Below, one piece after another: positions 323-4,983 of a DNA stretch of 64,000 nt. The notes under the pieces were generated by a model. That model was given only the letters and a program-made list of their open reading frames with translations. It was not told the DNA's origin and ran no database searches. The position numbers and the translations under genes are program-made. The stretch lies in contig NZ_OU342399.1 in assembly GCF_910589745.1 (NCBI RefSeq), positions 930,001 through 994,000 of the forward strand, given 5' to 3'. The stretch comes from Candidatus Arcticimaribacter forsetii. Lineage in GTDB: Bacteria; Bacteroidota; Bacteroidia; Flavobacteriales; Flavobacteriaceae. Position 1 is the stretch's first letter. Each line of letters starts with the position of its first letter.

Positions 323-1078
323 TTAAATTAAAGAAGCAATTCCGTTCCACAAAGAAATTCTATGGTTTAGTGCAGTTTTAGATGCTTCTAAAGCTTCGTC
401 CCATTTAACGGGGTCATCACCACACAATTCTTGGATCATTTTTAGAGCCATAGGTCCGTGTTCACCAGAGTCTACTTCAATATGACGCTCAAGATAATAA
501 ATCAAGTGGCTTAAATCTAGATTTGGTTCATTATTAATTGTTTTTACCATTTCGATAAACATGTCTGGAATTAAATCTTCCCGGCCGAAAGTAAAAACGG
601 CTGCAATAACGTGTGTTTTGTCAGATTCAATTACATCAAAAGTAAAAAGTAGAAAGTTTTTAATAAAATCAGGAAGATCAGCTGAGTTGATGTGATCTTG
701 GATGGTATCAAATTTTTCAATTTCATTCAAAAATTTTGATATGGATGAAGTCGAAGCACCTACTTGATCCATCGATTGCATATACATTTCAAAGTGAGAC
801 ATTGCAATACCATCTTTATTGATGTCAGTTTCTTCTCCCCAAACAATTTCGTTAATTAATCTTCCTGCAAAGGGCATTTTATTTGGAACCCAGGGTAGAG
901 AAGTGGTCGTGAGGTCCAATTGTAATTTTTTCACCAAAGACATGAAGTCCCAAACCGCATAAACATGGTGTTCCATGAAGATTTGAATGTCTTCTTTTCT
1001 ATCCATCATTTTGTATAATGGATGGTCAATTAATTGTAACTTTAGAGTCTCAATTTCATTTTCAATTCGGTCTATCAT
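323..1078 (-). CDS. DUF3050 family protein (haem-oxygenase-like fold)
   Basis: A 251-residue cytoplasmic protein with no signal peptide or membrane segment. The sequence fits the DUF3050 family: an early MEHHVYAVWDFM stretch with a His pair at residues 37-38, a central HFEMYMQSM, and a late YYLERHIEVDSGEHGP. Family knowledge places DUF3050 in the haem-oxygenase/TenA-like all-alpha superfamily. The conserved His/Glu residues hint at a metal or cofactor site, but no reaction is established. It is divergent from the LysE-type exporter and lies just upstream of the M28 peptidase on the same strand. Confidence 0.8.
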   Translation of the reverse strand: MIDRIENEIETLKLQLIDHPLYKMMDRKEDIQIFMEHHVYAVWDFMSLVKKLQLDLTTTSLPWVPNKMPFAGRLINEIVWGEETDINKDGIAMSHFEMYMQSMDQVGASTSSISKFLNEIEKFDTIQDHINSADLPDFIKNFLLFTFDVIESDKTHVIAAVFTFGREDLIPDMFIEMVKTINNEPNLDLSHLIYYLERHIEVDSGEHGPMALKMIQELCGDDPVKWDEALEASKTALNHRISLWNGIASLI

Positions 1079-1785: not shown

Positions 1786-2640
1786 ATGAAAAATCTTGTA
1801 CTTGTTGAATGTCCTCGAGACGCTATGCAAGGTCATAAACATTGGATTCCGACCCCCTCAAAAATTAAATATATACAGTCATTGCTTTCTGTAGGGTTTG
1901 ATGTTTTGGATGTTGGAAGTTTTGTTTCTCCTAAAGCAATACCACAAATGAGTGATACTGCAGAAGTTCTTGAAGGGATCGATATTTCGAAAAGTAGTTC
2001 TAAATTATTGGTCATAGTAGCAAACTTAAGGGGAGCAGAAGAAGCGGTGAAACAAGAAAAAGTAACCTATTTAGGATTCCCACTTTCAGTTTCAGAGAAC
2101 TTTCAAATGCGAAACACACACAAGACAAGAAATCAAGCGGTTTTGTTAGTTGATGAATTAATTACGCTGTGTAAAAAAAATGGAAAGCAACTAGTAGTTT
2201 ATCTATCTATGGGTTTTGGAAATCCATATGGAGATCCTTGGTCTATAAAAATCTTAATGGATTGGATAGAACTTTTAGTGCAAAAAGGGATTAAAATTAT
2301 ATCACTATCGGACACCATTGGGACCGCAAAAACAAACGATATAGGTCAGATATTTAAAACCGCTTTGATTCAATATCCAGAGGTAGAAATAGGAGCACAT
2401 TTTCATACAAAACCTGAAAATGCTTTTTTGAAAATAAAAGCTGCTCATGATTCCGGTTGTTTTCGATTTGATACTGCCATAAAAGGTTTTGGAGGATGTC
2501 CTATGGCTAGCGATCATTTAACAGGAAATCTACCTACCGAAAAATTGATTTCTTATTTTAATAAGCAGAAAATTGATTTAAAAATCGATCCCATTAAGTT
2601 TGAATACTCCTATAACCAATCACTTAAAACTTTTATTTAA
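1786..2640 (+). CDS. mvaB: Hydroxymethylglutaryl-CoA lyase
   Basis: A 284-residue cytoplasmic TIM-barrel enzyme that cleaves HMG-CoA to acetyl-CoA and acetoacetate, the last step of leucine breakdown. Visible hallmarks are VECPRDAMQ with the catalytic Arg-Asp at residues 11-12, SFVSPKAIPQM, a metal-binding His-Phe-His at 205-207 (GAHFHTKP), and the active-site loop GFGGCPMA with Cys238. The tail is slightly shorter than mitochondrial-type enzymes but all catalytic elements are present. The ATG sits 4 bases after a -7 box. The stop codon overlaps the first operator of the downstream porin gene. No other leucine-degradation gene is in the window. Confidence 0.9.
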   Translation: MKNLVLVECPRDAMQGHKHWIPTPSKIKYIQSLLSVGFDVLDVGSFVSPKAIPQMSDTAEVLEGIDISKSSSKLLVIVANLRGAEEAVKQEKVTYLGFPLSVSENFQMRNTHKTRNQAVLLVDELITLCKKNGKQLVVYLSMGFGNPYGDPWSIKILMDWIELLVQKGIKIISLSDTIGTAKTNDIGQIFKTALIQYPEVEIGAHFHTKPENAFLKIKAAHDSGCFRFDTAIKGFGGCPMASDHLTGNLPTEKLISYFNKQKIDLKIDPIKFEYSYNQSLKTFI

Positions 2641-2655
2641 ATTTATTCTAAATAA
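2633..2655 (+). promoter_or_regulatory. Operator copy 1 (TTATTTAAA-N5-TCTAAATAA)
   Basis: A 23-bp inverted repeat with 9-bp half-sites (8 of 9 positions symmetric) and a 5-bp centre. It overlaps the HMG-CoA lyase stop codon and ends 2 bases before the TTTG -33 element of the porin promoter. Symmetry and spacing fit a dimeric repressor. A Fur- or DtxR-type metal sensor is a guess from the gene content. Confidence 0.7.
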
Positions 2656-2657
2656 GC

Positions 2658-2688
2658 TTTGTCTTTCAATTTCTGTAATATATATTTG
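2658..2688 (+). promoter_or_regulatory. Porin promoter (TTTG-N19-TATATTTG)
   Basis: TTTG at 2658-2661 and TATATTTG at 2681-2688, separated by 19 bases, match both elements of the Bacteroidetes housekeeping promoter. The promoter lies between operator copies 1 and 2. Confidence 0.75.
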
Positions 2689-2693
2689 CAGTC

Positions 2694-2716
2694 TTATTTT
2701 TAATGAATCTAAATAA
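2694..2716 (+). promoter_or_regulatory. Operator copy 2 (TTATTTTTA-N5-TCTAAATAA)
   Basis: Third-best copy of the 23-bp element: the right half-site is identical to the other two copies and the left half-site matches the ideal at 7 of 9 positions. It covers the expected transcription start and ends 5 bases before the porin ATG, where a bound protein would block transcription. Confidence 0.6.
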
Positions 2717-2721
2717 ACACA

Positions 2722-3897
2722 ATGAGAATTTTTCTTTCTTTCTTTGCTTTCTTGTTTTTTTCTTTTGTATCAGCACAACAAAATCAAATTATTAAGCTTG
2801 ATAGTGTTCCTACTTCTCAGGTTCAAATAAATGGCTATCAAAGAATTTTATCAAATCTATCTGCAATTCCACAGGGAGTTACTTTAGGGGGTTATGGAGA
2901 GATTTTATACAACCAGCCCGATAACTTAAATGGAGAGTTAGATGTTCAACGTTTGGTTCTTTTATTTGGATATAAATTTAATGAAAGAGTTCAGTTCGTA
3001 ACTGAAATTGAATTTGAACATGTTAAAGAGGTTTATGTAGAACAAGCATTTGTTAACTACAGCCTCAGTCCTGGTGTAAACTTACGTGCAGGTTTGATGT
3101 TGGTTCCGATGGGTATTATAAATGAATATCACGAGCCTACAACGTTTAATGGAGTTGAACGTCCAAGTTTAGATAATGCGATTGTTCCAACAACATGGAG
3201 AGAAATTGGAATAGGGGTTTCTGGGCGAATTGATTCTGCCGCATTGAGATATCAAGCCTATATTTTTAACGGTTTCTTATCTCATGATGGAACCGCTGGT
3301 GTGTTAAGTGGCAAAAAAGGTTTAAGAGGGGGACGTCAAAAGGGAGCTGAATCTACAGTTGATAAATTTAATTTTTCTTCAAAACTAGATTTTTATGGTA
3401 TTCCAGGTTTGCGTCTTGGGCTTTCAGGATATTTTGGTAGAACACAGGCGGTTGATGATCAAGCAGGAATTTTAGGGAGCACAGTTGGGGTTTCAATGTT
3501 AGGGTTTGATGCTCGATACCGAGTGGGTCAGTTTTCTGCTAGAACTCAAATCATTCAAGCAAACTTATCCGATACGGGAGAATATAATACTTTAACAGGA
3601 AAGGATCTTGGAAAAGAAATTTCTGGGTACTACTTAGAAGCGGCATACAATTTATTGCCCGCAGTTAATAAACAACGTTTAGAAGGTTTTGTTCGTTATG
3701 AAGACTTCGATACTCATTCTGCAACAGCTGGAGATTTAATAAGAAATCCTGCATTTCACAGAAAAGAATGGACGACTGGTTTATCTTACCATTTATCGCC
3801 TGGATCTGTCTTCAAGGCAGACTATCAATGGAAGTCTACAGGTATTTCAAACTCAACTTATGGTCAATTTAATATGGGTGTAGGGGTGTGGTTCTAA
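2722..3897 (+). CDS. Outer-membrane porin, beta-barrel
   Basis: A 391-residue protein with a clear signal peptide (residues 1-18, ending FVSAQQ). The rest alternates hydrophobic and polar residues with many Gly and aromatic positions and ends in a terminal aromatic (GVGVWF), as expected for a porin-type barrel. The early GGYGEILYN, the FVTEIEFEH segment and NEYHEP/TTWREIGIG are typical of Bacteroidetes porins related to the phosphate-selective O/P group; the substrate is not readable. It is transcribed from a promoter flanked by two operator copies, and the next gene carries a third, so it probably belongs to one regulon with the FMN protein. Confidence 0.75.
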   Translation: MRIFLSFFAFLFFSFVSAQQNQIIKLDSVPTSQVQINGYQRILSNLSAIPQGVTLGGYGEILYNQPDNLNGELDVQRLVLLFGYKFNERVQFVTEIEFEHVKEVYVEQAFVNYSLSPGVNLRAGLMLVPMGIINEYHEPTTFNGVERPSLDNAIVPTTWREIGIGVSGRIDSAALRYQAYIFNGFLSHDGTAGVLSGKKGLRGGRQKGAESTVDKFNFSSKLDFYGIPGLRLGLSGYFGRTQAVDDQAGILGSTVGVSMLGFDARYRVGQFSARTQIIQANLSDTGEYNTLTGKDLGKEISGYYLEAAYNLLPAVNKQRLEGFVRYEDFDTHSATAGDLIRNPAFHRKEWTTGLSYHLSPGSVFKADYQWKSTGISNSTYGQFNMGVGVWF

Positions 3898-3900
3898 AGT

Positions 3901-3923
3901 TTATTTAAACTTAATCTAAATAA
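3901..3923 (+). promoter_or_regulatory. Operator copy 3 (TTATTTAAA-N5-TCTAAATAA)
   Basis: Both half-sites are identical to operator copy 1, again with a 5-base centre. It ends 2 bases before the TTTG -33 element, the same geometry as copy 1, so the two promoters look built to answer to the same regulator. Confidence 0.7.
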
Positions 3924-3925
3924 AC

Positions 3926-3956
3926 TTTGTAGATTAAATATCCCGAATTATATTTG
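3926..3956 (+). promoter_or_regulatory. Promoter of the FMN-binding gene (TTTG-N19-TATATTTG)
   Basis: TTTG at 3926-3929 and TATATTTG at 3949-3956 with a 19-base spacer. The -7 box ends 5 bases before the chosen ATG at 3962, so the transcript should be leaderless or nearly so. Layout matches the porin promoter closely, including the shared CTTTGT and TATATTTGCAG strings. Confidence 0.75.
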
Positions 3957-3961
3957 CAGTG

Positions 3962-4501
3962 ATGATACGATTTTTAACCCTTTTAAGTTTGACTTCAACA
4001 TTTTTTATGAATGGATTGTTTTCTGTTGAAAACAGTACAGAAGTAGGAAGTGTTAGAAAAAAGGTTCGAAAAGAAATTAAGAAAACATTTGCTGTAGAAT
4101 CTTTTGATCTAGAAGAAAATACCTTTGAAATTCCCAATTGTAATTTTTTACAGAACAGTTCATTTTTAGAAATTCATACTCAAAACGACTTCCTTGGGTA
4201 TGCATTTATAGGAACAGCTCCAAGTAAAACAGATAGCTTTGAATATTTAGTTCTTCTAAATAAGGACTTGGTTATTATCAAGGCCAAAGTTCTTGTTTAT
4301 AGAGAAGATTATGGAGGGGAAATTGGAAGTAGAAGATGGTTATCACAATTTATTTCCAAAGACAGCTCTTCAAAGCTAAGTTATGGGGGGGAAATTGTAC
4401 CCATTTCTGGAGCTACGATTTCAGTTCGATCGATGACTTCCTCAATCAATCATTTTCTTCAATCTCTTAAAGGGTTCGAAGCCGAAACAGCTGCTCCTTA
4501 A
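3962..4501 (+). CDS. Secreted FMN-binding domain protein (RnfG/NqrC-like)
   Basis: A 179-residue protein with a hydrophobic export signal (about residues 1-20) and one FMN-binding domain. The covalent flavin-attachment motif SGATIS is at residues 149-154; ApbE-type transferases link FMN to the last Ser/Thr of this motif, here a Ser. The preceding YGGEIGSRRWLSQF and GGEIVPISGA regions fit the family fold. It is much shorter than RnfG or NqrC and stands alone, so a role as a periplasmic electron carrier is inferred. A GTG at 3959 would also fit but lies almost on the promoter; the ATG at 3962 keeps the signal peptide. Its stop overlaps the next start by 1 base. Confidence 0.8.
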   Translation: MIRFLTLLSLTSTFFMNGLFSVENSTEVGSVRKKVRKEIKKTFAVESFDLEENTFEIPNCNFLQNSSFLEIHTQNDFLGYAFIGTAPSKTDSFEYLVLLNKDLVIIKAKVLVYREDYGGEIGSRRWLSQFISKDSSSKLSYGGEIVPISGATISVRSMTSSINHFLQSLKGFEAETAAP

Positions 4502-4983
4502 TGTTTGATTACAATTATATTGCTCGTCTTCCAAAGCCGGTTAAGTTTTTTTTAGTTGCTTTTTTGGTTGCGTTGTCTGTGGGGTATTTTACTGGAATTA
4601 ATTTTGTAAGAGTAACCGAAAGTTCAACCCCTAAAGGAGTAGTAGAAAATTATAATGGAAACGAGGACGTCCCGGAGGCAACTACCATGAAATTCAAGAA
4701 AGGGAAACGTGAAATGCTCACCATTATCCACACCCATATTTTGTCGATATCCTTCATTTTTTTTCTTTTAGGTATTTTAGTTTGGGGAACAGATCAGTCT
4801 ATTTGGTTGAAATCATTTCTAACAATTGAACCTTTTATCTCCGTTTTAACAACTTTTGGAGGAATTTATATGCTTTGGCTCGGATATTCCTTCTTTTCAT
4901 ACGTAGTTATTTTTTCCGGAATATTAATGACATTGAGTTATATACTGGGTGTTTTAGTAGTTATGAAGGATCTTTTGAAATAA
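4501..4983 (+). CDS. Four-helix membrane protein, likely partner of the FMN protein
   Basis: A 160-residue inner-membrane protein of no family I recognise with certainty. Four hydrophobic helices are visible: about residues 15-35, 80-98, 112-132 and 136-155. A hydrophilic loop of roughly 40 residues after the first helix should face the periplasm. At the mouth of helix 2 lies IIHTHIL with His77 and His79, possible haem or metal ligands. The start codon overlaps the stop of the FMN protein (TAATG), implying translational coupling and matched amounts. The likely job is to pass electrons between the membrane and the FMN carrier; that is inference. Confidence 0.65.
   Translation: MFDYNYIARLPKPVKFFLVAFLVALSVGYFTGINFVRVTESSTPKGVVENYNGNEDVPEATTMKFKKGKREMLTIIHTHILSISFIFFLLGILVWGTDQSIWLKSFLTIEPFISVLTTFGGIYMLWLGYSFFSYVVIFSGILMTLSYILGVLVVMKDLLK

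Follow-up and report, generated by a model that had tools for sequence, protein, structure and literature searches.

Three adjacent genes in the 64-kb window, that is, the whole stretch of DNA analysed here, which belongs to a 2.03-Mb genome, encode an outer-membrane porin, an exported FMN-binding protein and a small four-helix membrane protein. We propose that, taken as a whole, this trio serves as an iron-starvation ferric reductase chain of the envelope, a reading to which we assign a probability of about 0.5. Its components carry different weights. There is little doubt that the three genes form one functional unit, and control of the module by iron through Fur is predicted from its operators with the same high confidence; scarcely less firm is the predicted covalent attachment of FMN to Thr152 of the flavoprotein. 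What we infer beyond this is which substrate is reduced, which donor supplies the electrons and how they pass through the trio. No description of such a trio was found in the open-access papers searched.

The initial annotation had described a porin, a secreted protein with an FMN motif and a four-helix membrane protein, and all three were found where it had placed them (Table 1). In a Pfam scan the porin scores 32.3 bits for PF07396, whose cut-off is 20.9, and it shares 55–81% identity with its counterparts in eight related loci. The proposed translational coupling of the last two genes is likewise borne out, as the stop codon of the FMN gene (TAA, 4499–4501) shares one base with the start codon of the membrane gene (ATG, 4501–4503). 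Elsewhere near the module, a DUF3050 protein encoded at window positions 323–1078 has a weak match to the haem-oxygenase-like family PF14518.

Table 1. Genes, promoters and predicted Fur boxes of the module (window coordinates).
Feature	Position	Strand	Basis
Fur box 1, TTATTTAAATTTATTCTAAATAA, immediately before the porin promoter's -33 element	2633..2655	+	17/18 palindrome positions
Porin promoter: TTTG 2658-2661, 19 bp, TATATTTG 2681-2688	2658..2688	+	sequence
Fur box 2, downstream of the -7 element and ahead of the porin ATG	2694..2716	+	16/18 positions
Porin, outer membrane, Porin_O_P superfamily, 391 aa	2722..3897	+	PF07396 match; identity to related loci
Fur box 3, TTATTTAAACTTAATCTAAATAA, 5' of the FMN-protein promoter	3901..3923	+	17/18 positions
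FMN-gene promoter: TTTG 3926-3929, 19 bp, TATATTTG 3949-3956	3926..3956	+	sequence
Exported protein of the FMN_bind family, 179 aa; predicted flavinylation at Thr152 of ISGAT	3962..4501	+	PF04205, fold, invariant GAT
Four-helix inner-membrane protein, 160 aa	4501..4983	+	helix prediction, invariant residues

The operator of the module is a 23-bp palindrome, TTATTTAGA-N5-TCTAAATAA. Sites matching at least 16 of its 18 palindrome positions are expected 0.05 times in 64 kb under a first-order Markov model; three were observed, all in the module, and the 64-kb window holds no further copy at this threshold outside it. Two promoters had been claimed to carry the same operator, and the copies at 2633 and 3901, each with 17 of 18 positions, uphold this; the third copy, Fur box 2, was missing from that earlier list. 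The porin promoter sits between boxes 1 and 2, and the FMN promoter comes after box 3. Both promoters, with their 19-bp spacers, fit the flavobacterial type with TTTG at -33 and TAnnTTTG at -7 (as cited in PMC5609570), and the transcript of the FMN gene would begin at or beside the ATG, making it nearly leaderless. Where the sequence upstream could be read, almost every flavobacterial locus has box 1 (L083, whose contig begins within the porin, was left out of the box comparison), and families of the order that are further removed also have a box upstream of the porin. The paired boxes around the porin promoter are kept in most Flavobacteriaceae loci; box 3 is kept in L001 and L002 and degenerate in L004, L006, L066, L067 and L070.

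The palindrome core of the module boxes, ATTTAGA-N5-TCTAAAT, is that of the Fur box published for another flavobacterium, Riemerella anatipestifer, as ATTTAGAATTATTCTAAAT; there, binding of Fur to promoters carrying the box was demonstrated by EMSA (PMC5609570). The same box is found in the window's genome upstream of feoA-feoB, sufA-sufB and nqrA, upstream of an alternative complex III cytochrome gene, and at a divergent hemA / AraC-hemH pair. Since feoA, sufA, hemA, nqrA and complex III all carry it, the shared signal is most probably iron, in line with the initial proposal that the module answers to a single signal. In four relatives, whose genes were named by sequence inspection unless scanned, boxes occur upstream of FeoB loci, hemA, nqrA, complex III and a TonB receptor, as well as upstream of succinate-dehydrogenase-like and nitrate-reductase-like genes, and the module boxes rank among the best of each genome. 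Fur-like boxes 5' of nitrate-reductase-like and succinate-dehydrogenase-like genes were noted in L192 (G379) and L193 (G028), which suggests iron control of iron-rich respiratory enzymes. The genome encodes two Fur-family proteins, the gene of one adjoining a purA-like gene. It also has one DtxR-family gene, but the box is the published Fur box, and DtxR was set aside as the regulator. The box is identified by its sequence, and the direction of control would be repression at high iron. Presence of the box is in itself insufficient to assign repression, because the iron-using complexes (nqr, complex III, suf) share it; repression is nevertheless likely here because the boxes are placed around the porin promoter.

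Joint conservation of the three genes had been set beforehand as one of the refutation tests of the module, and they are conserved together far beyond the flavobacteria. Across the window and three sampled sets, which span several Bacteroidota lineages, 46 loci (the window counted) have a membrane gene that is both confidently identified and unbroken, and 44 of them preserve the order of the trio; some species may appear twice in this total, as named loci and sampled genomes may overlap. The genome samples were even draws, orthologues in distant loci were called with profiles made from the trio itself, and several neighbour genes were named by sequence inspection. Among named Flavobacteriaceae, eight of nine loci carry the trio in order, and the ninth (L009) is a deletion relic in which box 1 and some 51 codons from the 3' end of the membrane gene are left. 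The survey of the order found the membrane protein in 20 of 393 genomes, and 17 of the 18 intact loci that it added show the porin-FMN-membrane order; in the exception, G335 (L068), the membrane gene has imelysin, HTTM and TonB-receptor genes as neighbours, while the FMN gene is elsewhere, after a DUF6607-like gene. At the level of the phylum, 43 of 394 genomes match, and the trio is present in 18 of the 20 loci read, the exceptions being L114, where DUF6607 replaces the porin, and L133, a weak match. The neighbourhood survey for ApbE that the initial annotation had called for was also rewarding: in other lineages apbE belongs to the same cluster, namely in 11 of the 20 phylum-set loci, eight times downstream of the membrane gene and three times upstream of the porin (Pfam-confirmed). 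The window's genome has two apbE copies, neither beside the module.

Some neighbours of the trio have iron-related roles. Ferritin is encoded near it in L008, L066 and L114 and a Dps-like ferritin in L077, and a solute-binding protein is next door in L119 and, by sequence, also in L121 and L124. Four f10 genomes (L136, L137, L138, L140) have the porin and FMN genes followed by a TonB-dependent receptor, without the membrane gene; the latter therefore appears replaceable or dispensable, and electron input can differ. As separate observations, a DUF6607 or DUF6607-like gene stands directly 5' of the FMN gene, with the porin absent, in L141 and L114, where a TonB receptor or ferritin is close to the pair, and DUF6607 may have an iron-related role in the envelope. 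In two relics from different genera, both upstream of guaB (L009:4400-4620 and L084 (G359):3880-4130), the module is lost and the first Fur box is fused to what remains of the membrane gene, roughly its final 35-51 codons; the retained stretch may contain the guaB promoter.

The FMN protein has a signal-like N-terminus that lacks a lipobox Cys, and its ISGAT motif occupies residues 148–152. PF04205 matches the window's protein with 22.1 bits at a cut-off of 22, borderline taken alone, and also matches nine of nine relatives, the best at 3.7e-8. A structural model (pLDDT 74) aligns with 9eri_G at a Z-score of 13.0 and 3.6 Å over 148 residues, and the best 16 matches of this structure comparison are all RnfG or NqrC, with Z-scores of 10–13. 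Across 46 sequences, residues E115, G118, Q129, G150, A151 and T152 are invariant, and S149 is found in 42.

In the model of the membrane protein (pLDDT 78.5), helices span residues 12–39, 69–95, 101–126 and 132–158, and helix 2 carries H77 and H79 close to its outer end. Seven residues, G53, H77, H79, F87, E110, P111 and F119, are invariant in 46 sequences. By the positive-inside rule, both termini would be cytoplasmic and the His-x-His pair would lie near the periplasmic face, towards the FMN protein. No known cofactor site is seen in the protein. Its only two invariant histidines are spaced two residues apart along the same helix, so that within a monomer they cannot jointly ligate a single haem, which speaks against the proposed role in electron transfer. 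Judged from sequence comparison, the protein is a new family. It belongs to no Pfam or NCBIfam family, and PDB sequence searches returned no relative of it (and nothing useful for the porin); Foldseek gave only matches with E >2, and the best VIA match is to 3t6g, an unrelated soluble protein made of helices, whose Z of 9.2 is in the range that helical bundles are expected to give. It has no sequence match to DUF4405, PepSY, MsrQ or FezC, and PepSY, MsrQ and DUF4405 are absent among the Pfam matches, up to E 10, of 14 + 13 members of the family. DUF2871 (PF11070) was considered and rejected: it matches 4 of 14 members weakly (best E 0.00054) and the window's protein not at all, the profile comparison is not significant (P 0.04–0.1), and the PF11070 matches in the phylum are other genes. 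DUF2871-like proteins do lay out helix 1, loop and the HxH of helix 2 as here, in a low-confidence alignment; unlike the trio's protein, these four-helix proteins are found near nitric-oxide-reductase-like genes. Such PF11070-like proteins with a helix-2 HxH, adjoining nitric-oxide-reductase-like genes, were seen in distant Bacteroidota (L148-L151, L154, L156-L158, L167).

We interpret the module as follows. When iron is sufficient, Fur-Fe2+ would occupy the boxes around the porin promoter and before the FMN-gene promoter, and low iron would end this repression. The porin would then admit ferric iron or small ferric complexes to the periplasm. ApbE, to which the motif, the fold and the gene linkage all point, would link FMN to Thr152 of the exported flavoprotein, and the four-helix protein would hand it electrons from the membrane pool, probably from quinol, with the invariant His-x-His and Glu-Pro sites presumably assisting the transfer to FMN. 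Reduced FMN would turn Fe(III) into Fe(II), which FeoAB, encoded in the same genome and under the same box, could import. The suggestion in the initial annotation of an iron- or metal-linked reductase module with a pore thus finds support in the Fur box and the conserved porin linkage, reductase activity being its presumptive part.

The same genes can be read in other ways. The periplasmic flavin protein could be an iron-sparing carrier that substitutes for a haem or Fe-S carrier at low iron, as flavodoxin does for ferredoxin, and feeds periplasmic reductases, for example in methionine sulfoxide repair, with the porin as a co-induced general pore. Fur boxes are indeed common to haem- and Fe-S-containing respiratory complexes, and msrB-like genes, recognized by sequence inspection, follow porin-FMN in several f10 genomes. 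Such a carrier would hardly account for the porin as the most constant partner, retained where the membrane protein is lost, and the ferritin, TonB-receptor and solute-binding neighbours favour iron handling; we regard this reading as unlikely.

If the four-helix protein were instead an inner-membrane channel or carrier for Fe(II), with the FMN protein reducing iron at its mouth, its metal sites would be the His-x-His on the outer side and Glu110 on the inner side. H77, H79 and E110, all invariant, are residues of the kind that bind metals, and they sit on adjacent helices at depths that differ (judged from helix limits only); the module is also under predicted iron control. However, FeoAB is already in the genome under the same box, and the FMN protein would be left without an electron donor, which makes a channel distinctly improbable. 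The tightness of the porin-FMN pair, kept even without the membrane gene, raises the further thought that the FMN protein binds inside the porin or beneath it and conveys electrons over the outer membrane to extracellular ferric minerals or chelates. Pairwise family distances correlate (r 0.88–0.91, 44 loci), though common descent alone could explain this. Sixteen-strand porins are narrower than MtrB-type barrels, and a porin barrel of ~390 residues should be too narrow for a domain of the size of the FMN protein; a conduit of this kind is a long shot. The ferric reductase chain is the reading we prefer.

Flavinylated extracytosolic electron transfer is known, and P19 and PepSY clusters have been proposed to tie it to the assimilation of iron (PMC8238504). 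The trio shares with ApbE-flavinylated FMN_bind proteins (RnfG, NqrC, PplA and the clusters of PMC8238504) the SGAT motif, the FMN_bind domain, the fold and export, and its loci in other lineages share with those systems an apbE gene in the cluster; it differs in its partners, a porin and an unclassified four-helix protein, and the words "porin" and "Bacteroidetes" are absent from the main text of PMC8238504. P19/FTR1 clusters with an FMN-binding gene, a proposed assimilatory reductase, have a similar tie to iron assimilation, whereas the trio has a porin and the new membrane protein, and neither P19 nor FTR1 was found among the Pfam-scanned neighbours in the window. PepSY, MsrQ, DUF4405 and FezC are membrane cytochromes of flavinylation systems (PMC10979944). 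PepSY-like, MsrQ-like and DUF4405 proteins (PMC8238504, PMC10979944) resemble the trio's in being small membrane proteins with conserved His and an exported flavinylated partner, but the protein described here is built of four helices, one of which bears both of its invariant His. With Porin_O_P proteins of the OprO/OprP type the trio porin has a PF07396 match in common; it is not, however, beside phosphate genes, and phosphate uptake was rejected as its main role because a phosphate-linked PF07396 paralogue, the genome's other protein of this family, lies elsewhere beside a PHO4 transporter.

With the trio, the known flavinylation systems would gain a porin-linked class that includes one new protein family. 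A bolder extension, in which a Fur-controlled flavin electron route runs through the envelope of Bacteroidota across the phylum, served by small membrane proteins of a new, quinol-to-flavin class and by a porin that takes part in the passage of electrons or iron instead of being a passive pore, is tentative and on balance doubtful. The reduction of ferric iron by Bacteroidota, which count among the most common bacteria in the sea and in the gut, is poorly known. The trio brings to this question three genes conserved as a unit under a defined regulator, together with a flavin site that can be tested and a new family of membrane proteins in which seven residues are invariant.
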